NCBI RefSeq assembly: GCF_013376415.1
Contig: NZ_WYET01000009.1
Location: 62,001 to 126,000 of the forward strand
Length of the DNA stretch: 64,000 bases
Direction: 5' to 3'
From: Flagellimonas chongwuensis
Lineage (GTDB): Bacteria > Bacteroidota > Bacteroidia > Flavobacteriales > Flavobacteriaceae
Part shown: piece by piece, positions 1,719-30,987 of the stretch
Position numbering within the stretch: position 1 is the stretch's first letter
Layout: every line of letters begins with the position of its first letter
Program-made: the position numbers and the translations under genes
Notes under the pieces: generated by a model
What the model was told of the DNA's origin: nothing
Database searches by the model: none
What the model saw: only the letters and a program-made list of their open reading frames with translations

Positions 1719-1746
1719 TCCCACGAAGTTCAAACACGTATTGTTA

Positions 1747-1881
1747 GTTATCAAGAAAGGTGGAGGGAATAGACCCGTTGAAGCCTTAGCAACCCTTGAC
1801 TCCCGTCATGAAGGTGCTACGTTCTATCCCTTTTGGGAATAGATAACATCACAGGTAGTTTCTGCCCCACTTTCTTATAAC
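1747..1881 (+). promoter_or_regulatory. SAM-I (S-box) riboswitch
   Basis: The aptamer core is readable: P1 5' strand ATCAAGAAAGGTGG, the GGAGGGA...GACCC segment, AAGCCTTAGCAACC, then AAGGTGCTA and the P3 hairpin (TCTATCCC, TTTT loop, GGGAATAGA) ending in GATAAC, with the closing P1 strand CCACTTTCTTATAAC. These are S-box hallmarks. It precedes the trifunctional methionine/threonine gene by 46 nt. No U-tailed terminator lies between aptamer and start codon, only a short GACCC/GGGTC hairpin at 1902-1914. Control of translation is therefore more likely than intrinsic termination, though this is inferred. Confidence 0.9.
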
Positions 1882-16289: not shown

Positions 16290-16317
16290 CAGTTCAGTTC
16301 ATTTATAAATTGAAAGT

Positions 16318-16495
16318 GTTATCAAGAAAGGTGGAGGGATTGGACCCTTTGAAGCCTTAGCAACCCTCGACTTCGAGAAGGTGCTACATTCTACCCTTGC
16401 CTTGGAAAAAACCCAAGGCCATTTAGAAAGCTTAATCTGTAAGGGGAAGGATAACGTAAAGTATTCAACACAGTACCTACGCACTTTTCTTGATT
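16318..16495 (+). promoter_or_regulatory. SAM-I (S-box) riboswitch, long variant
   Basis: The 5' half is nearly identical to the copy at 1747: ATCAAGAAAGGTGGAGGGA, then AAGCCTTAGCAACC and AAGGTGCTA. P1 closes with CACTTTTCTTGAT near 16482-16494. The P3 arm is expanded: after CTACCCTT comes an added hairpin GCCTTGG/CCAAGGC and a run of about 25 nt before AAGGGGAAGGATAAC returns to the core. The metH start follows 34 nt downstream; no terminator hairpin lies between, while GAAGGGA at 16514-16520 looks like a ribosome-binding site. Confidence 0.9.
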
Positions 16496-17534: not shown

Positions 17535-20210
17535 ATGGCAGCGAACAACGAACAACGATATTTGAAACTGAGTGGCTTGGAACCACTGGTGGTAACCCCG
17601 GATAGCAATTTCATAAATGTGGGGGAGCGAACCAATGTGGCTGGTTCCAAACGGTTTTTAAGGCTCATCAAAGAAGAAAAATTCGATGAGGCACTTGATG
17701 TGGCACGCGATCAAGTGGAAGGTGGTGCCCAAATCATCGACGTGAACATGGATGATGGTTTGATCGATGGAAAAGAGGCCATGGTCAAATTTTTGAACCT
17801 GATTGTTTCAGAGCCCGATATTGCTCGTGTGCCTATCATGGTCGATAGTTCCAAGTGGGAAATTATCGAAGCTGGATTGCAAGTAGTGCAAGGCAAATGT
17901 GTGGTAAATTCCATAAGCCTAAAGGAAGGAGAGGAAGAATTTATCCACCATGCCAAATTAATCAAGCGCTACGGCGCCGCTGTGATCGTTATGGCTTTTG
18001 ATGAAGTGGGCCAGGCCGATAACTTGGAACGCCGGATTGAAATTGCCAAACGGTCATACGATGTCCTTGTCAACAAGGTGAATTTTCCTCCGGAAGATAT
18101 CATTTTCGACCTTAACATTTTTCCGGTGGCAACGGGAATGGATGAACATAGACGCAATGCTGTCGATTTTATAGAAGCCACTCGCTGGGTAAAGGAAAAC
18201 CTGCCCTATTGTAGCGTAAGTGGAGGAGTGAGCAATGTTTCCTTTTCATTCAGGGGGAACAATCCAGTTCGTGAGGCCATTAACTCCGCATTTTTGTTTC
18301 ATGCCATTAAAGCAGGCATGAACATAGGTATCGTAAACCCGACCATGTTGGAAGTGTATGACGATATTCCCAAAGACCTCTTGGAATATGTGGAAGATGT
18401 ATTGTTGGACCGACGGGATGATGCTACTGAACGATTGTTGGACTTTGCGGAAACGGTTGTAGGTACCAAAAAGGAATCCAAAGTGGACCTGTCTTGGAGG
18501 GAAGAGCCACTTCAGGATAGGATCACACGCGCTCTGGTCAAAGGCATAGACCAATATATTATAGAAGATGTGGAAGAGGCGCGTCAACAAGCCGCGAAAC
18601 CTTTACATGTCATCGAAGGCAACTTGATGACTGGGATGAATGTGGTCGGTGACCTTTTCGGAAGCGGAAAAATGTTCTTGCCCCAGGTAGTGAAATCCGC
18701 CAGGGTCATGAAAAAAGCCGTAGCCTATCTGACTCCTTACATCGAAGCATCCAAAGATAAAAATGCGAAGGCCGCAGGTAAAATTTTAATGGCTACCGTA
18801 AAGGGAGACGTGCACGATATTGGCAAAAACATTGTAAGTGTCGTATTGGCTTGTAACAATTATGCGATTGTGGATATGGGGGTGATGGTGCCACCGGAAA
18901 AAATCATCAATAAGGCCAAGGAAGAGCAGGTGGATATTATTGGATTGAGCGGACTGATTACCCCTTCGTTGGATGAAATGGTATTTCTGGCCAAGGAGAT
19001 GGAACGCCAAAACTTTGAAGTGCCGCTTTTGATAGGCGGGGCTACCACGAGCAAGGCGCATACTGCGGTTAAGATAGACCCTCAGTACAGTCAATCCGTG
19101 GTACACGTGAACGATGCATCCAGAGCGGTAACGGTTGTGGGCAATTTGCTTCAAGATGAGTCTTCCGTTCAGTATAAAAAATCCATCAAACTGGATTATG
19201 AGAGTTTTAGGGAGAAGTTTTTAAAGCGAGGAAAGCAGAAGGAATATTTGACCTTGGAACAGGCTCGTAAAAACAAATTTCAAATCGATTGGAATCCATC
19301 GGACATCAAAAAACCCAACCAGTTGGGTATTGAGGTCTGGTATGATTTTGACCTGACCAAATTGGAGGACTACATTGATTGGTCACCCTTTTTTCGAAGC
19401 TGGGACCTGCATGGTAAATACCCAAATATTTTGACGGATGATGTGGTAGGTGAACAGGCTAAAGAACTTTTCAAGGATGCCAAAACACTTTTGAAAAAAG
19501 TTTTGGATGAAAAATTGTTGAAGGGCAAAGCCATCTTTGGACTGTTGCCGGCAAACCAAATTAATGAGGATGATATTGAGGTGGACAAGGATGGGGAAAC
19601 CTTTATTTTTAGGACTCTTCGCCAGCAATTGAAAAAGCGTGAGGGAGTACCGAATATTGCATTGGCGGATTTTATTGCGCCAAAGGGTTCCGGAATTCAA
19701 GATTATATGGGCTTTTTTTGTGTAAGCACCGGATTTGGAACGCAGGAATTGGCCGCTGAGTTCGAGAAAAACCACGATGATTACAATTCTATCATGATCA
19801 AAGCTTTGGCCGACAGACTTGCAGAGGCTTTTGCCGAGTATCTGCACAAAGAAGTACGAACCAAATATTGGGGCTACGCGGTTGATGAAAACTTGGACAA
19901 CACTGAATTGATCAAGGAAAAGTATAGGGGGATCCGGCCGGCTCCGGGTTATCCCGCATGTCCAGATCACTTGGAAAAATTGACCATTTGGGATATGTTG
20001 GAAGTTAAAGAAAAGATAGGAGTAAAGTTGACGGATAGTTTGGCCATGTGGCCTGCAGCCAGTGTCAGTGGCTATTATTTTGCGCACCCAGAGGCAAAGT
20101 ATTTTGGATTGGGTAAAATAGAACAAGATCAAGTTCAGGATTTTGCAAAACGAAAAAATATGAAACTAGAGGAAGCCCAAAAGTGGCTGGCCCCGAATAT
20201 TGTTGATTAA
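17535..20210 (+). CDS. metH: Cobalamin-dependent methionine synthase, folate/B12/activation modules (MetH part 2)
   Basis: An 891-residue protein with three MetH modules: methyltetrahydrofolate (pterin) binding from about residue 22 ([31 protein letters not shown]), cobalamin cap and Rossmann domain with the base-off motif D425-x-H427-x2-G430, and the C-terminal SAM-dependent reactivation domain with [12 protein letters not shown]. It starts 3 bp after the homocysteine module and lacks that domain itself, so E. coli's single MetH is split here. The segment [20 protein letters not shown] near the end is the conserved activation-domain terminus. It transfers a methyl group from methyl-folate to homocysteine. 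metF follows after 5 bp. Confidence 0.95.
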
Positions 20211-20215
20211 GACCG

Positions 20216-21169
20216 ATGAAAATTACCGACCACATAAAAAAGGCAAACGGAGAAACACTTTTCAGTTTTGAGATTGTGCCGCCCGTAAAAGGAAAGAGCA
20301 TTCAGGAGCTGTACAATAACATAGACCCTTTGATGGAGTTCAAGCCTCCGTTTATTGATGTGACTACCTCCCGAGAGGAGTACATATATAAAGAAAAGGA
20401 TGGATTGTTGGATAAAAAACTGACCCGTACCCGTCCCGGTACTTTGGGTATCTGTGCCTCATTAAAACATAAATACGATGTGGATACAGTGCCACATGTG
20501 CTTTGTGGAGGATTTACCAAAGAGGAGACTGAATACCTTCTGGTGGATTGCCAATATTTAGAGATTGAAAATGTGATGGCGCTCCGCGGTGATGCCCGTA
20601 AAGAGGAAAAGTATTTTGCCCCGACCAAAGGGGGACATCAATACGCCACAGAACTGGTAAAACAGATTCAAGACATAAACCAAGGGAATTATCTGCATGA
20701 CACCATCAAATCGAGCGATTTGAGCACTTTCTGTATTGGAGTTGCGGGCTATCCAGAAAAACACATGGAAGCACCCTCTTTGCAAACCGATTTGAAACGT
20801 TTGAAGCAAAAAGTGGATTTGGGGGCGGACTATGTGGTGACCCAAATGTTTTTCGATAATCAGAAATTCTTTGCATTTGTAGAAGCGGCCCGTGAGATGG
20901 GAATAGAAGTGCCGATAATACCGGGAATCAAACCCATCGCAGTAAAAAGGCACCTTCAATTACTTCCCCATGTTTTTAGTATAGACCTTCCAGAAGATTT
21001 GATCAATGCTGTCGAGGCTTGTAAAGACAATAAGGAAGTGCGACAAGTAGGAGTGGAGTGGGCCATCCAGCAGTCCAAGGAATTAAGGGAGGCAGGGGTG
21101 CCCGTACTACATTATTATTCCATGGGTAAATCGGATAATGTGAAGGCAATTGCCAAGGAACTTTTTTAA
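20216..21169 (+). CDS. metF: Methylenetetrahydrofolate reductase
   Basis: FAD-dependent TIM-barrel enzyme of 317 residues making 5-methyltetrahydrofolate, the methyl donor for MetH encoded just upstream. Signatures are FSFEIVPPVKG near the N-terminus, the DVTTSRE segment, LRGD (NVMALRGDARKEEK) and AGYPEKHMEAPSL followed by DLKRLKQKVDLGADYVVTQMFFDN. Length and domains match bacterial MetF, without the eukaryotic regulatory domain. It is translated as part of the riboswitch-controlled metH operon (5-bp gap). The next gene starts 19 bp on and may be read through. Confidence 0.95.
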   Translation: MKITDHIKKANGETLFSFEIVPPVKGKSIQELYNNIDPLMEFKPPFIDVTTSREEYIYKEKDGLLDKKLTRTRPGTLGICASLKHKYDVDTVPHVLCGGFTKEETEYLLVDCQYLEIENVMALRGDARKEEKYFAPTKGGHQYATELVKQIQDINQGNYLHDTIKSSDLSTFCIGVAGYPEKHMEAPSLQTDLKRLKQKVDLGADYVVTQMFFDNQKFFAFVEAAREMGIEVPIIPGIKPIAVKRHLQLLPHVFSIDLPEDLINAVEACKDNKEVRQVGVEWAIQQSKELREAGVPVLHYYSMGKSDNVKAIAKELF

Positions 21170-25792: not shown

Positions 25793-26686
25793 TTAGGCGG
25801 TCAGCTCAGTGAAAAGACTTTCCAAATTTTTGTTTTTTCTACTGAGTTGAAGTGTTTTTAGTTTATTGTCGTGAGCAAAATCGAACACGGCTGGCCGCAT
25901 GTCTTTTGAAGTGTTGAAGGTGATTTCATAAACGAATCCACCTATATTTTTAACGTTGGAAACATTGGGCATTTGTTGTAGAAGTTGTTCTTCCACACGA
26001 TAATCAAATTCCACTTCGATGATTTGTTCCTCAGCTTCACGGAGTTCCTCCAGTTTTTTGTCGGCCACCAATTCTCCTTTGTTGATGATGATTACTCGGT
26101 CACAAACTGCCTCGACTTCCTTCATGATATGTGTGGAAAGCAAAATGGTTTTCTCCTTTCCTATTTCACGAATCAGTTTTCTAATTTCAATCAATTGATT
26201 TGGGTCGAGCCCCGTGGTGGGCTCGTCCAGGATCAAAACCTCCGGGTCGTGCAGCAGTGCAGCTGCGAGCCCGACTCGCTGACGGTATCCTTTGGATAAC
26301 TGTCCAATTTTTTTGTGGGCTTCGGGAGACAATCCGGTTTGCTCTATAACCTCATTTATTTTGGCTTTGTCCACTTTATAAACATCGGCGTTGAAGGCCA
26401 AGTATTCCTTAACGTACATCTCCAAGTACAGCGGATTGTGCTCTGGTAGATAACCGATACTTTTCTGAACATCTTTTTCGGCCTGTAAAACATCGAACCC
26501 GTTTACATTTGCTTCGCCTTCATCTGCCTTGTAATAGGTGGTCAAAATTCGCATCATGGTCGACTTTCCCGCGCCATTGGGTCCCAAAAAACCCACTACC
26601 TCACCCTTGTTGATGGTAAATGAAACATTGTTCAATGCTTTTTGTGCGCCAAAGGTCTTTGTAATGTTCTGTACGGTGATGGACAT
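25793..26686 (-). CDS. gldA: Gliding-motility ABC transporter ATP-binding protein GldA
   Basis: ABC ATPase of 297 residues. Walker A is GPNGAGKST (35-43), the signature is LSKGYRQ (130-136) and Walker B is LILDEP (151-156). The C-terminal 80 residues follow the DrrA/NatA-like extension. The N-terminus MSITVQNITKTFGAQKALNNVSF and the whole pattern fit GldA, the ATPase that with the membrane proteins GldF and GldG forms an ABC transporter needed for gliding in Flavobacterium. GldF/G are not in the window. A minus-strand -7 box (TATTTTTG) lies at 26709-26716. Confidence 0.82.
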   Translation of the reverse strand: MSITVQNITKTFGAQKALNNVSFTINKGEVVGFLGPNGAGKSTMMRILTTYYKADEGEANVNGFDVLQAEKDVQKSIGYLPEHNPLYLEMYVKEYLAFNADVYKVDKAKINEVIEQTGLSPEAHKKIGQLSKGYRQRVGLAAALLHDPEVLILDEPTTGLDPNQLIEIRKLIREIGKEKTILLSTHIMKEVEAVCDRVIIINKGELVADKKLEELREAEEQIIEVEFDYRVEEQLLQQMPNVSNVKNIGGFVYEITFNTSKDMRPAVFDFAHDNKLKTLQLSRKNKNLESLFTELTA

Positions 26687-26932
26687 TCAAGTTGAATTTA
26701 AGGTATTCCAAAAATACACTTTTACTTGTTTTAATCATTGGTTTTCAAAAGCAAGGATTTTGCAAATGGAATTTATATGTAAATGCTCTTATGGTAAGAA
26801 TTCTCAAAAAAGAGTCCATTCTGTAAAATAATGTGCAGTGAAAATCTCTTTTTTGAAAAAAATCAAAAAAAATTTAGGAATCTCTGTCTGTTTCCGATTG
26901 AATACCTAAATTAGCCGACAATTAACAATGAG
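26687..26932. other. Intergenic region between gldA and the aromatic leader
   Basis: First part of a 377-bp gene-free stretch. It holds the candidate gldA -7 box on the minus strand (26709-26716) and A/T-rich DNA. A plus-strand promoter for the leader must lie here; TAAATTAG at 26907-26914 is the nearest -7-like element but has a mismatch and no convincing -33 partner. Nothing else was recognised. Confidence 0.5.
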
Positions 26933-27004
26933 ATGACAAACACGTATTTCTGGAACCGTTTTTATTTTTACTTCTTTTTTGAGAGAGGTACGGGACTATT
27001 ATAG
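26933..27004 (+). CDS. Phe/Tyr-rich leader peptide (attenuator of the aromatic operon)
   Basis: A 23-codon reading frame, ATG at 26933 to TAG at 27002. Ten of its residues are aromatic (six Phe, three Tyr, one Trp), concentrated in the core YFWNRFYFYFFF. It stands directly before the prephenate dehydratase operon and ends 26 nt before an intrinsic terminator. Composition and position are those of the enterobacterial pheL leader (Phe-rich, ahead of pheA) although the sequence is unrelated. The expected role is to time transcription: scarce charged tRNA-Phe or tRNA-Tyr stalls the ribosome in the codon run and lets an antiterminator form. A second ATG at 26928 is followed at once by a stop and is not the start. 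Confidence 0.82.
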   Translation: MTNTYFWNRFYFYFFFERGTGLL

Positions 27005-27039
27005 ATACGTTTAAAGTATAACCAATTTATAAAGTCCCG
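26991..27039 (+). promoter_or_regulatory. Predicted antiterminator pairing
   Basis: CGGGACT at 26991-26997, within the last leader codons, is complementary to AGTCCCG at 27033-27039, the 5' arm of the terminator. Pairing of these two segments excludes the terminator. A ribosome that reaches the leader stop codon (27002) would cover the first segment. Additional weak pairings ACGTAT (26942) with ATACGT (27005) and CCGT (26956) with ACGG (26990) could act as the protector helix. Confidence 0.65.
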
Positions 27040-27060
27040 ATACATCGGGACTTTTTTTTT
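27031..27060 (+). terminator. Attenuator terminator before pheA
   Basis: AAAGTCCCGA, loop TACA, TCGGGACTTT: a 10-bp perfect stem followed by a run of T to 27060. It lies only 3 bp before the prephenate dehydratase start codon. No upstream gene on this strand would need it, so it is a regulatory terminator in the leader. Confidence 0.92.
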
Positions 27061-27063
27061 GCA

Positions 27064-27891
27064 ATGGAATTAAAAGTTGCCATACAAGGAATAAAAGGGT
27101 CGAACCACCATCAGGTGGCCACGGATTTTTTCGGAGAAAACATTGAATTGCTCGAGTGCAACTCTTTTGATGCCGTAATCGATAGTTTGATCATAGGTGC
27201 TGCGGACAAAGGTATTATGGCCATTGAGAATTCTATAGCCGGTTCTATTATTCCAAACTACAATTTAGTGTACCACAACAATATCCATGTGATCGGGGAG
27301 CATTACTTGAACATTCACCATAACCTTATGGTTATGAAAGGGAAAACTTTTGATGACATCCAAGAGGTACATTCGCACCCTATGGCATTGTTGCAGTGTA
27401 AGGAGTTTTTCAAAGCGCATCCACAAATCAAATTGGTGGAAAGTGTGGACACGGCCGAGACAGCGAAAAGAATCAAAGAGGAAGAACTGGGCCATATTGC
27501 TGCAATTGCACCAAAAATGGCAGCTGAATTATATGATTTGGAAATTATTGCCGATAACATCCAGACCATAGTGAACAATTCTACGAGGTTTATTGTTCTT
27601 AAAAAACAGAATAAAGTGTTGCCAGAGGAAGAAATCAACAAGGCATCAATACGATTTATCACAGATCATAAAAGAGGTAGTTTGGCAACGGTTTTAAATG
27701 TGATGAGCGATTGCAATATGAACCTGACCAAAATCCAGTCCCTACCTGTAATCGAGACCCCTTGGAAGTATGCTTTTTTCGTTGACGTGACTTTTGATAA
27801 GTACAAGCATTTTGCCAAAACCAAATCTTTAATGCAGATCATGGCAGAGGATTTCACGGTTTTGGGAGAATATAAAAATGCATTGTTGTAA
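27064..27891 (+). CDS. pheA: Prephenate dehydratase
   Basis: Converts prephenate to phenylpyruvate, the committed phenylalanine step. It is a stand-alone dehydratase of 275 residues: catalytic domain 1-185 with ENSIAGSI (55-62) and the TRF motif (NNSTRF, 172-177), then an ACT domain 193-275. In Phe-binding ACT domains the motifs are GALV and ESRP; here they read GSLA (205-208) and QSLP (225-228), so feedback by phenylalanine may be weak or different. No chorismate mutase is fused; that domain is on the DAHP synthase three genes downstream. The gene is first in a tight operon under the leader attenuator and overlaps the next gene by 1 bp. Confidence 0.92.
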   Translation: MELKVAIQGIKGSNHHQVATDFFGENIELLECNSFDAVIDSLIIGAADKGIMAIENSIAGSIIPNYNLVYHNNIHVIGEHYLNIHHNLMVMKGKTFDDIQEVHSHPMALLQCKEFFKAHPQIKLVESVDTAETAKRIKEEELGHIAAIAPKMAAELYDLEIIADNIQTIVNNSTRFIVLKKQNKVLPEEEINKASIRFITDHKRGSLATVLNVMSDCNMNLTKIQSLPVIETPWKYAFFVDVTFDKYKHFAKTKSLMQIMAEDFTVLGEYKNALL

Positions 27892-29033
27892 TGATAACAG
27901 CAGATAGATTAAATACCGTACAGGAGTATTACTTCTCCAAAAAACTGAGAGAAGTGAGGGAATTGATGGCCCAAGGAAAACCAATCATCAATATGGGGAT
28001 TGGCAGTCCAGATTTGGCTCCATCACCACAGGTGCTGGAAACCCTTCGGGATTCCATTATCGAGGCTGGGGCACATCAGTATCAAAGCTATCAAGGGTTG
28101 CCGCAGCTACGGGAGGCCATTGCAGATTTCTATCAGCAGAAATTTGAGGTAAGCGTAGACGCATCCACGGAGATTTTGCCATTAATGGGTTCCAAAGAAG
28201 GAATCATGCACATCAGCATGGCCTTTTTGAATGAAGGCGATGAGGTTCTGCTGCCCAACCCAGGATACCCAACATATGCATCGGTGACCAACTTGGTGGG
28301 CGGAAAAGCTGTTACTTACGATTTGAAGGCTGAAAATGGTTGGTTTCCAGATTTAGGGGAACTGTCCGAAAAAGACCTATCCAAGGTAAAATTGATGTGG
28401 GTCAGTTATCCACATATGCCCACAGGTGCAACAGCGACCAAGGAGCAATTGGTATCGTTGGCGGAGTTTGCCAAACAAAATGAGATTCTTTTGGTAAACG
28501 ACAATCCGTACAGTTTTGTGCTGGCGAATAATCCGACCAGCATACTTTCAATCGAGGGAGCGAAAGAATGCACCTTGGAATTGAACAGTTTAAGCAAGAC
28601 ATTCAACATGGCAGGTTGGCGTGTTGGGATGGTACTAGGGAGTGCAGAGCACATCAACGCAGTGTTGAAAGTAAAGAGTAATATGGATTCTGGAATGTTC
28701 TACGGCATTCAAAAAGGCGCCATTGCAGCATTACAAAGTGGACCTGAATGGTTCGAAGAGTTGGACAAGGTGTATACCAAGCGACGTGAATTGATGTTCC
28801 AATTGGCCGATAAATTAGGTTGTACGTATGATAAAAATGCCGTAGGCATGTTTGTATGGTGCAAGTTACCGGAAGGCGCCAAGGCTTCGGAAGAATTCAT
28901 AGATGAAGTGCTGCACGATAAAGATATTTTTATTGCTCCGGGAACCATATTCGGAAGCAATGGCGAAGGCTACATTCGTTTTTCACTTTGCGTGAGCGAA
29001 GAAAAAATCAAAGAAGCCATAGAAAGATTTTAA
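27891..29033 (+). CDS. Class I/II aminotransferase (aromatic)
   Basis: Fold-type I PLP aminotransferase of 380 residues. GIGSPDLAPSP near the start, NDNPYSFVL (pyridine-binding Asn/Asp region) and the cofactor lysine in NSLSKTFNMAGWRVG are clear. Its ATG overlaps the stop of pheA. Position between prephenate dehydratase and prephenate dehydrogenase strongly suggests it transaminates phenylpyruvate and 4-hydroxyphenylpyruvate to Phe and Tyr, or prephenate to arogenate. By sequence alone it could also be grouped with LL-diaminopimelate or aspartate aminotransferases. Confidence 0.88.
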   Translation: MITADRLNTVQEYYFSKKLREVRELMAQGKPIINMGIGSPDLAPSPQVLETLRDSIIEAGAHQYQSYQGLPQLREAIADFYQQKFEVSVDASTEILPLMGSKEGIMHISMAFLNEGDEVLLPNPGYPTYASVTNLVGGKAVTYDLKAENGWFPDLGELSEKDLSKVKLMWVSYPHMPTGATATKEQLVSLAEFAKQNEILLVNDNPYSFVLANNPTSILSIEGAKECTLELNSLSKTFNMAGWRVGMVLGSAEHINAVLKVKSNMDSGMFYGIQKGAIAALQSGPEWFEELDKVYTKRRELMFQLADKLGCTYDKNAVGMFVWCKLPEGAKASEEFIDEVLHDKDIFIAPGTIFGSNGEGYIRFSLCVSEEKIKEAIERF

Positions 29034-29035
29034 TT

Positions 29036-29896
29036 ATGAAAGTAGTCATCATAGGAGTTGGGTTGATTGGCGGTTCTTTTGCCAAGGATGTAAAAAAGGT
29101 GCATCCTGAAGCGGAAATTATTGGAGTGGACAAAAGTGATGCTCATTTGGAAGAGGCACTTCAACTTCAAATCATAGATAAAAAGGGCGACTACCAAGAT
29201 TTGGCGACCGCTGATTTGGTCTACGTAAGCATCCCTGTGAACGTCTTAGTGGCCGAACTATCTAAAATTTTGGATGCTGCCGGAGATGAAACCGTGGTGA
29301 TGGATGCAGGCTCCACCAAACGCTTGATTTGTCAGCAAGTTGCCGACCATCCTAAACGAAGAAATTTTATGGCCTGTCACCCCATTGCAGGAACCGAGTT
29401 TTCTGGTCCGACCGCAGCTTTGGAAGGATTGTATAGTGGCAAAACCATGATTATTTGCGAGGTCGAAAAAACTGCCTTTAAACTTCAGGAACCAGCATTG
29501 GCCATTTTTCAGGAGATTGGTATGCGAATCCGCTATATGAACCCAGAGGCCCATGACAAACACATTGCCTACGTCTCTCATTTATCACACATTAGCTCTT
29601 TTATGTTGGGAAAGACAGTTATTGAGAAAGAAAAAAATGAGCGTGATATTTTTGACATGGCCGGGAGTGGTTTTGAAAGCACCGTTCGACTTGCAAAAAG
29701 TTCACCGGATATGTGGACACCGATTTTTGAGCAGAACAAGGACAATGTTGTGGAAACGTTGGAAGAGTATATCGAGAACCTCACAAGGTTCAAACAACTG
29801 ATCGTGGACAACGATTTTGAAAATGTCCATCAAGAAATGAGTAATACCAATAAAATAAAACAAATACTAAAAGGAATACCACTTACAAAAAAATAG
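29036..29896 (+). CDS. tyrA: Prephenate dehydrogenase
   Basis: NAD(P)-dependent oxidative decarboxylation of prephenate (or arogenate) toward tyrosine. The 286-residue protein has the nucleotide loop GVGLIGG (7-13), the catalytic-region HPIAGTEFSGP and the helical domain SHLSHISSFML. ATG 29036, 2 bp after the aminotransferase stop, gives the family start MKVVIIGVGLIGGSF; an upstream in-frame GTG would only add residues overlapping the previous gene. It has no ACT domain, so tyrosine feedback through such a domain is not expected; control may rest on the attenuator. Confidence 0.92.
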   Translation: MKVVIIGVGLIGGSFAKDVKKVHPEAEIIGVDKSDAHLEEALQLQIIDKKGDYQDLATADLVYVSIPVNVLVAELSKILDAAGDETVVMDAGSTKRLICQQVADHPKRRNFMACHPIAGTEFSGPTAALEGLYSGKTMIICEVEKTAFKLQEPALAIFQEIGMRIRYMNPEAHDKHIAYVSHLSHISSFMLGKTVIEKEKNERDIFDMAGSGFESTVRLAKSSPDMWTPIFEQNKDNVVETLEEYIENLTRFKQLIVDNDFENVHQEMSNTNKIKQILKGIPLTKK

Positions 29897-29904
29897 AGAG
29901 TATT

Positions 29905-30987
29905 ATGGAAAACAAAAAGGAAATGAGGAAATGGTTGGATGACATGAATTTAGATCATCCCTTGGTAATTGCAGGTCCATGTAGTGCCGAAACCGAAGAT
30001 CAAGTGCTGAAGATTGCACATGAACTTAAAGATACCGACGTGAATTACTATCGCGCCGGAATCTGGAAACCAAGAACTCGTCCTGGAAACTTTGAGGGAG
30101 TTGGAGCCATTGGATTAAAGTGGTTGCAAAAAGTCAAGGAAGAAACAGGTTTGAAAACCGCTACCGAGGTGGCCAATAGGGCACACGTTGATTTGGCATT
30201 GGAGTATGATGTGGATTTGTTATGGATCGGTGCACGTTCCACCGTAAGTCCATTTATTATCCAAGAAATTGCAGATGCATTGGAAGGGACCGATAAAATT
30301 GTGTTGGTAAAGAACCCGGTAAATCCGGACCTTTCCTTGTGGTTGGGTGCTGTTGAGCGTTTGTACTCTGCCAATATTGAAAAATTGGGAGTGATCCACA
30401 GAGGGTTCTCCACATATGAAAAGACGAAGTATAGAAACATTCCAGAATGGCAATTGGCCATTGAATTGCAAACCAAGTTTCCTGACCTTCCCATCATTAA
30501 TGACCCTAGCCACATTACCGGTAAGCGTGATATGATTTTTGATGTATCCCAAACCGCATTGGACCTGAACTTTGATGGTTTGATGATCGAAACACACTAC
30601 GATCCGGACAATGCTTGGAGTGATGCTGCACAGCAAGTAACCCCCAAAACATTGGTTCAGATTATGAAAGATCTTCGAATTAGAAAGGAAACTGATGAGG
30701 AAGCCGAATACAACAGCAAGTTGACCAACCTTAGGGCACAAATTGATGTGTTGGACAATCAATTGATTGATTTGCTAGGTAAAAGAATGAAGGTTTCCGA
30801 TGGCATCGGTGAATTGAAAAAACAAAAGAACGTTGCCGTACTTCAGAGTAACCGATGGAACGCCATTTTGGGAAACATGATCTTGGAAGGAGAGCAAAGA
30901 GGCTTGAGCGAAGAGTTTATCTTAAAAATGTTCAAAGCGATTCACCAAGAATCCATCAACCACCAAGAAAAGATAATCAACGCATAA
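29905..30987 (+). CDS. aroF: Bifunctional DAHP synthase / chorismate mutase
   Basis: A 360-residue fusion. Residues 1-265 are a type I-beta (KDO8PS-like) DAHP synthase, with AGPCSAE at 23-29, RAGIWKPRTRPG and NDPSHITGKRD, catalysing the first shikimate step from PEP and erythrose 4-phosphate. Residues about 270-360 are an AroQ chorismate mutase (LRAQIDVLDNQLIDLLGKRMKVSDGIGELKKQKN). The fused mutase provides prephenate for the pheA and tyrA products of the same operon. In such fusions the mutase domain commonly makes the synthase sensitive to prephenate or chorismate. The gene is last in the operon, 8 bp after tyrA, and a long terminator follows. Confidence 0.93.
   Translation: MENKKEMRKWLDDMNLDHPLVIAGPCSAETEDQVLKIAHELKDTDVNYYRAGIWKPRTRPGNFEGVGAIGLKWLQKVKEETGLKTATEVANRAHVDLALEYDVDLLWIGARSTVSPFIIQEIADALEGTDKIVLVKNPVNPDLSLWLGAVERLYSANIEKLGVIHRGFSTYEKTKYRNIPEWQLAIELQTKFPDLPIINDPSHITGKRDMIFDVSQTALDLNFDGLMIETHYDPDNAWSDAAQQVTPKTLVQIMKDLRIRKETDEEAEYNSKLTNLRAQIDVLDNQLIDLLGKRMKVSDGIGELKKQKNVAVLQSNRWNAILGNMILEGEQRGLSEEFILKMFKAIHQESINHQEKIINA

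Follow-up and report, generated by a model that had tools for sequence, protein, structure and literature searches.

Among the described systems, enterobacterial pheL combines a leader ORF, a terminator before pheA and competing pairings, and this layout is shared by the element described here. Attenuation by a ribosome requires that the ribosome keeps pace with RNA polymerase. The leu/phe leader of Lactococcus is likewise a leader RNA ahead of amino-acid genes, and a comparative attenuator study published in 2004 by Vitreschak and colleagues reportedly touched on the Bacteroidetes as well.

In 2010, leader peptides were held, in the passage concerned, to be unshown outside the Proteobacteria and Actinobacteria before that report's own case from the Firmicutes (PMC2965389). 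The Bacteroid-trp motif and an actinobacterial pheA motif are both listed in Table 1 of a survey (PMC2864571), and Bacteroid-trp has been noted in Flavobacterium psychrophilum (PMC6414381). Leader genes have been counted in several phyla including the Bacteroidetes, in the relevant section without pheA (PMC4833913), and two Phe/Tyr uORFs of shikimate genes are mentioned among five genomes (PMC6429828). Of direct relevance is a study from 2021 which reported a conserved structured 5′ element without Rfam hit upstream of pheA in F. psychrophilum and suggested leader-peptide attenuation for amino-acid operons (PMC9723704). The main-text parts of this paper name the pheA element in one sentence and give no leader sequence, pairings or spacing. 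Among the matches listed in our literature searches it alone names an element before pheA in the Flavobacteriaceae, and this element is most probably the same as ours. The statement of the initial annotation that attenuation is much less described in Bacteroidota than in enterobacteria therefore needs tempering, as Bacteroid-trp (RF01692) is in Rfam and the pheA element is in print. In principle the element works like pheL, trpL and hisL, and it is partly anticipated (PMC9723704, main-text parts); the present analysis adds a description of the leader family, of its alternative pairings and how they co-vary, and of the spacing, and extends the element to genomes outside the family.

The element lies in a window of 64,000 nucleotides from Flagellimonas chongwuensis (contig NZ_WYET01000009.1). 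In coordinates of this window its parts and the genes behind it are as follows.

26907..26914, plus strand: candidate −7-like promoter box TAAATTAG (TAnnTTnG), 18 nt before the leader ATG.
26933..27004, plus strand: leader ORF of 23 codons and a TAG stop, peptide MTNTYFWNRFYFYFFFERGTGLL, ten F/Y/W residues; an aromatic leader is found in 30/30 genus loci and in 80/80 named loci, the two sets overlapping.
26943..26951, plus strand: segment 1, tentatively a partner of 26984–26992 (protector or pause hairpin).
26960..26980, plus strand: putative sensor run F Y F Y F F F, seven codons (codons 10–16), conserved in the genus.
26991..26997, plus strand: segment 2, CGGGACT, 5′ strand of the predicted antiterminator, exact complement of 27033–27039 and co-varying with segment 3.
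27005..27019, plus strand: small hairpin ATAC...GTAT within the antiterminator loop, 95.6% of cells paired in the genus (genus only).
27031..27041, plus strand: segment 3, terminator 5′ arm and antiterminator 3′ strand, from complementarity, terminator scan and alignment.
27044..27060, plus strand: segment 4, terminator 3′ arm with T run, from the stem alignment over 58 distinct sequences.
27064..27891, plus strand: pheA, prephenate dehydratase; best NCBIfam family NF008865 with 199.1 bits, under the cut-off of 219.
27891..29033, plus strand: PLP aminotransferase, by context probably aromatic; aminotransferase families, all those shown under their cut-offs.
29036..29896, plus strand: prephenate dehydrogenase; NF006307 with 391.6 bits, above the cut-off of 295.
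29905..30987, plus strand: DAHP synthase–chorismate mutase fusion; each domain has NCBIfam matches, under the cut-offs.

The initial annotation had described the ORF at 26933–27004 with 23 codons and ten aromatic residues and a terminator at 27031–27060, 26 nt behind the ORF and 3 nt before pheA. On recheck these coordinates and counts hold: the stem comprises 27031–27054, the T run extends to 27060, and the pheA ATG follows at 27064. The pairing that it had proposed between CGGGACT and the 5′ arm of the terminator also stands, being an exact 7-nt complement. When all 1283 short frames of the window are considered (14–45 codons including the stop, one per stop codon, both strands, the 3′ ends of longer frames included), the leader ORF is the only one with at least eight aromatic residues per 12, having ten. 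A terminator scan of 26687–27200 yielded two sites compared to 0.2 expected by shuffling; the site at 27031–27060 is the stronger one, and the other lies on the minus strand within pheA. An overlapping start–stop, ATGAGATGA at 26928–26936, was set aside as a feature, because its first ATG is present in only two of the 30 genus loci (L001 and L006, by eye).

The operon behind the terminator was said to make exactly Phe and Tyr. It may be added that, by the established pathway, the DAHP synthase in the same operon feeds all three aromatics. Of the four gene names only that of the dehydrogenase is backed by a score above cut-off, the other three being best family plus context. The upstream neighbour (25793–26686, minus strand), by the look of its sequence an ABC transporter ATPase, is divergent from the leader, so that no upstream transcript needs a terminator at 27060.

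The locus thus has a leader ORF enriched in codons for the end products of its operon, a predicted intrinsic terminator between the leader and the first structural gene, and a predicted antiterminator which is incompatible with this terminator, has one strand beneath the leader ribosome or immediately in front of it, and is maintained in evolution. We consider it highly probable that 26933–27060 is a ribosome-mediated transcription attenuator of the aromatic operon.

No family of Rfam reaches its cut-off at this putative attenuator. At gathering score, a scan of the window with Rfam 15 gave nothing at the leader and terminator; two SAM riboswitches (RF00162) were found elsewhere, at 1745–1849 (plus strand, 71.8 bits) and 16316–16412 (plus strand, 59.1 bits). 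The second of these lies ∼1.1 kb before 17535–20210 and 20216–21169, which by eye resemble metH and metF, and therefore probably heads a methionine operon. A permissive scan of 501 bases (26700–27200) gave 11 matches, all under their gathering scores. The enterobacterial Phe_leader model RF01859 matches 26932–27060 over its full length, but with 33.1 bits against a gathering score of 55 it was rejected as the identity of the element: about half of the pairs in the long stem of the model are non-standard here, and the alignment rests mostly on the AUG, the U-runs and the terminator. Unlike pheL, the leader is also rich in Tyr and Trp, the antiterminator strand lies within the last codons of the leader, and the operon has four genes. 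Also rejected from the permissive scan were the rimP leader (27.2 bits, cut-off 47) and STnc180 (22.1 bits, cut-off 50). The Lactococcus leu/phe leader RF01743 matched on the opposite strand only (15.4 bits, cut-off 70). Bacteroid-trp RF01692 is similar in being a Bacteroidetes leader of an amino-acid operon which occurs in the same genome over cut-off; nevertheless, the element differs from it in leader sequence and RNA, and RF01692 had no match at 26700–27200 up to E 10. The terminator/antiterminator layout would also suit a riboswitch or a T-box that binds the amino acid or the tRNA directly. We regard this as extremely unlikely, given that no such family matches at gathering score, nor up to E 10 in the 501 bases, and that no conserved structured domain is seen beyond the alternative hairpins.

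The short ORF and the alternative pairings, which according to the initial annotation should recur in relatives, are indeed kept: throughout the family we see conservation and co-variation of the ORF, the terminator and segment 2. Using one fixed pipeline, we found a leader and a terminator before pheA in 160 of 169 upstream regions: 30/30 in the genus (Allomuricauda/Flagellimonas), 124/129 in other genera of the family Flavobacteriaceae, and 6/10 in the order. PheA is present in 35 of the 36 genus genomes, own genome included; 30 of these 35 loci were fetched and five left out. The family sample comprises one genome per genus, and 129 of the 148 genomes from other genera contain PheA (29 + 56/70 + 44/49). 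In four family genomes (L082, L093, L100, and L166) no leader is recognizable in the 300 nt before pheA, perhaps because of leader losses or moved promoters, and L077 was scored as a miss as its contig starts inside the leader, the leader tail and terminator being present. Among the ten order genomes with PheA the pipeline missed L117 (five aromatic residues), L120, L125, and L126. In the wider class, where PheA loci outside the order number 36, we fetched 26 and left out ten; of those fetched, 17/26 have a leader with at least six aromatic residues in 12 and 14/26 also a pipeline terminator; three of these 14 terminator calls are doubtful (L177, L190, and L196). The call failed for L184, L192, and L197, where a mismatched stem is visible by eye.

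These counts are based on PheA and are independent of the covariance model R1, which was built from the 30 genus loci and at E ≤ 0.01 matches 95 of the 149 genomes of the family sample, with one match in the own genome. At this threshold R1 also matched genomes without PheA match (G113, G120, and G136), so that not all weak R1 matches are this element; the best 29 loci from other genera all have an aromatic leader and PheA downstream. The named PheA records nearest to ours are from Allomuricauda, Flagellimonas, and Muricauda, followed by Croceivirga, Maribacter, Arenibacter, and others. Of 118 named records 80 were kept, and in every one of them the 500 nt upstream contain an ORF with at least seven aromatic residues in 12; this set, many members of which are the same genomes as in the other sets, was checked for the ORF alone.

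As the region is A+T-rich, so that Phe and Lys codons are favored wherever a frame is open, such an ORF could in principle be a chance product next to the terminator of another transcript, with no regulatory link between them. We give this a probability close to nil. An ORF with at least eight aromatic residues in 12 is found upstream of pheA in 149 of 159 genus and family regions, but in only 6 of 795 shuffled sequences and in none of the 159 reverse strands; in addition, the upstream gene is divergent and segments 2, 3, and 4 co-vary. A chance arrangement is thus contradicted by conservation.

The distance between hairpin and gene bears on a further explanation. In this genus the terminator stem ends 104 nt (L008) or 87 nt (L019 and L024) before the PheA match in three loci and 8–12 nt before it in the remaining ones, and in L051 the distance is 337 nt. 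The hairpin with its T run ends 3–4 nt before the ATG in most genus loci, and the stem end is less than 20 nt from the PheA match in 72 of 160 loci, so the hairpin could act mainly on translation by hiding the pheA start site, to be opened by the leader ribosome. We judge this to be very unlikely: in the other 88 of the 160 loci the stem lies 20 to more than 300 nt before the PheA match and still carries a T run, although it must be added that the terminator search requires one. Of the 160 loci with leader and terminator, 159 have fewer than 140 nt between the terminator end and the beginning of the PheA match. A transcriptional terminator, as demanded by attenuation, remains our preferred reading of the hairpin.

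In an alignment of 58 distinct sequences, 98.6% of the cells of the terminator stem are paired and eight of its ten pairs have both-sided changes, a result that none of 500 shuffles equals. This alignment was fitted to the terminator stem and, apart from two flanking columns, not to the antiterminator. For the antiterminator pairing of segments 2 and 3, 95.1% of cells are paired, compared to at most 58.8% when one strand is slid by one to three columns, but both-sided changes occur in only three cells while slid versions reach up to seven. The 58-sequence alignment alone is therefore no proof of antiterminator co-variation.

Better evidence comes from segments 2, 3, and 4 having changed jointly in whole groups of genera, from CGGGAC/GTCCCG/CGGGAC to CGAGAC/GTCTCG/CGAGAC. 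Rarer sets of segments 2 and 3 are AAGGCT/AGCCTT in L058 and GAGCGGTC/GACCGCTC in L122. A terminator 5′ arm of the form GTC[C/T][C/T]G is present in 136 loci, six of them without a segment 2 motif at the fixed place; in the other 130 the variable arm base and the facing base of segment 2 are C–G in 63, T–A in 62, T–G in three, and C–A in two loci, so that the facing base fits in 128 of 130. This switch between C–G and T–A largely follows clades, and since related sequences inflate the counts the independent events are fewer. Leaders of the GTCTCG group pair better with their own arms (mean score 16.7) than with GTCCCG arms (10.5), while leaders of the GTCCCG group are less specific (18.2 with their own arms, 16.1 with those of the other group) because G–U pairs are allowed. 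Over all loci the mean pairing score of segments 2 and 3 is 17.8 as opposed to 11.4 in shuffles, with p ≤ 0.05 in 134/160 loci. Perfect pairs of at least six bases between them are found in 89 loci; there are 27 different ones, in part longer or shorter reads of the same sequences.

For segment 1 the picture is less clear. RNAalifold proposed a hairpin between 26943–26951 and 26984–26992 on the genus alignment, where 91.9% of cells are paired, a value in which codon constraint is not separated and which codon constraint alone could yield. Over the 58 distinct sequences 83.4% of cells are paired, and several pairs are often broken outside the genus. The 1:2 hairpin may add basal termination in this genus, and a protecting role in the untranslated state is possible, again mainly in this genus.

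One distance stays nearly constant. From the last aromatic codon to the start of segment 2 there are 9–12 nt in 140 and 8–13 nt in 149 of the 160 loci (10 nt in the window). This spacing is kept despite differing leader lengths, stop positions and peptides, the end of the stop codon being as little as 9 or as much as 36 nt away from the last aromatic codon; in leaders that stop early, segment 2 extends over or past the stop codon. In the 14 class loci the spacing is wider, 7–14 nt, with the exception of L190. In L008 (1276–1402) one base is missing near the leader end, which puts the last codons into another frame and moves the stop 9 nt further away from the aromatic run; this run, segment 2, and the terminator are kept. 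The toeprint of a ribosome usually lies ∼15–16 nt from the first base of the P site. Together with the spacing of 9–12 nt, this would place the front edge of a ribosome whose A site is occupied by the last Phe codon just before segment 2, whereas a ribosome at the stop codon would cover it. The masking of segment 2 by a ribosome at the leader stop, as proposed initially, agrees with this geometry in most loci. It is difficult to account for such a constant spacing unless a ribosome decides whether segment 2 is free.

Folding gives a more differentiated result. In the window the antiterminator is obtained when folding starts from the edge of the stalled ribosome (−21.2 kcal/mol) and the terminator when it starts from the stop edge (−14.4); with no ribosome placed, the terminator forms together with a folded leader (−31.9). 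In minimum-energy folds of the stalled state with segment 4 included, the antiterminator is favored in 47 of 160 loci compared to 8 of 800 shuffles, and in the other 113 it is unsupported by equilibrium folding. When only segment 3 is out and segment 4 is still unmade the antiterminator forms in 159/160 loci, but also in 331/800 shuffles. In most species the antiterminator must therefore win by forming first.

The putative sensor itself is strongly conserved near home, each of its positions (26960–26980) showing one residue in all 30 genus loci or in 29 of them. The initial annotation called the leader a Phe/Tyr leader peptide. The dense Phe/Tyr core agrees with this, but the window leader also has a Trp codon, and W is present in 113 of 154 leaders, so that Trp has to be included. 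In many genera the core YFWNGFYFYFFF is kept beyond mere aromatic content (N8, G/R9). This would speak for an arrest peptide similar to TnaC: the nascent chain itself, acting with an aromatic amino acid in free form or with another signal, would halt the ribosome, and the RNA switch would follow. On the contrary, other genera of the family have different cores, for example, YTYYNWFYFFF and FTYFNFWFFYF, and F, Y, and W interchange at like positions while the aromatic run persists (by eye), which is what codon sensing predicts. In addition, the near-constant feature is the distance to segment 2, and the C-terminal residues are accounted for by the RNA pairing they encode. An arrest peptide thus appears very unlikely to us.

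We therefore return to attenuation of the pheL type with an unrelated leader sequence, as first proposed and now supported by the conserved parts, the co-variation and the spacing. From these we infer that the leader is translated and that stalling and termination respond to the amino-acid supply as follows. The leading ribosome would reach the leader stop and cover segment 2 (26991–26997) as long as there is sufficient charged Phe-, Tyr-, and Trp-tRNA; segment 3 would then pair with segment 4 to form the terminator, and RNA polymerase would stop at about 27060. A shortage of any of them would make the ribosome wait in the aromatic run (26960–26980) with its front edge just before segment 2. 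The free segment 2 could then catch segment 3 as it emerges from the polymerase, no terminator would form, and the whole aromatic operon would be transcribed.

The candidate box at 26907–26914 would provide the promoter of the leader transcript. It agrees except for one letter with the −7 motif TAnnTTTG of the Bacteroidetes (PMC7366714). A box of the pattern TAnnTTnG, which is looser than the published one, is present in the 60 nt ahead of the leader ATG in 140 of 148 loci compared to 110 of 740 shuffles, and the commonest distance to the ATG is 18 nt, the same as in the window. The 5′ leader ahead of the ATG would then be only about ten bases long. In Bacteroidota translation is largely initiated without Shine–Dalgarno pairing.

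Further leaders are apparent in the same genome. Bacteroid-trp RF01692 matches L198 (G000:C7:35776-35888) with 62 bits at a cut-off of 49, and this element bears a short ORF with WWW, MNNRIANNWWWNNLCQTS (by eye). A candidate His leader, MRNRNTHHHFYTCPQAR, is followed by a strong terminator before hisG (L279; by eye, own genome alone), ∼300 nt before the HisG domain match (G000:C1:86950). Likewise, upstream of ilvD (L280, G000:C1:278527-279480, minus strand) a strong terminator comes after the candidate Ile/Val leader MNTNKQVIIEVVIIPEME, whose end is by eye able to pair with the terminator arm.

On balance we think it rather probable that the aromatic leaders form a lineage-wide attenuator family outside Rfam, spread across the Flavobacteriaceae and other orders of the Bacteroidia, in which the leaders have widely diverged and the ruler from the last aromatic codon to the antiterminator strand is held (9–12 nt in most of the family, mostly 7–14 nt in the class), and that this family, taken with the candidate leaders of his, ilv, and trp, implies that in Bacteroidota the first ribosome closely follows RNA polymerase as soon as the first codons are made, on 5′ leaders that are very short. 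The geometry of the element makes most sense under coupling, and transcription–translation coupling thereby becomes testable in this phylum. Beyond this, the element would offer a ready amino-acid sensor for Bacteroidota and would assign a mode of regulation to the aromatic operon throughout a large family; as an RNA family it could be added to Rfam.
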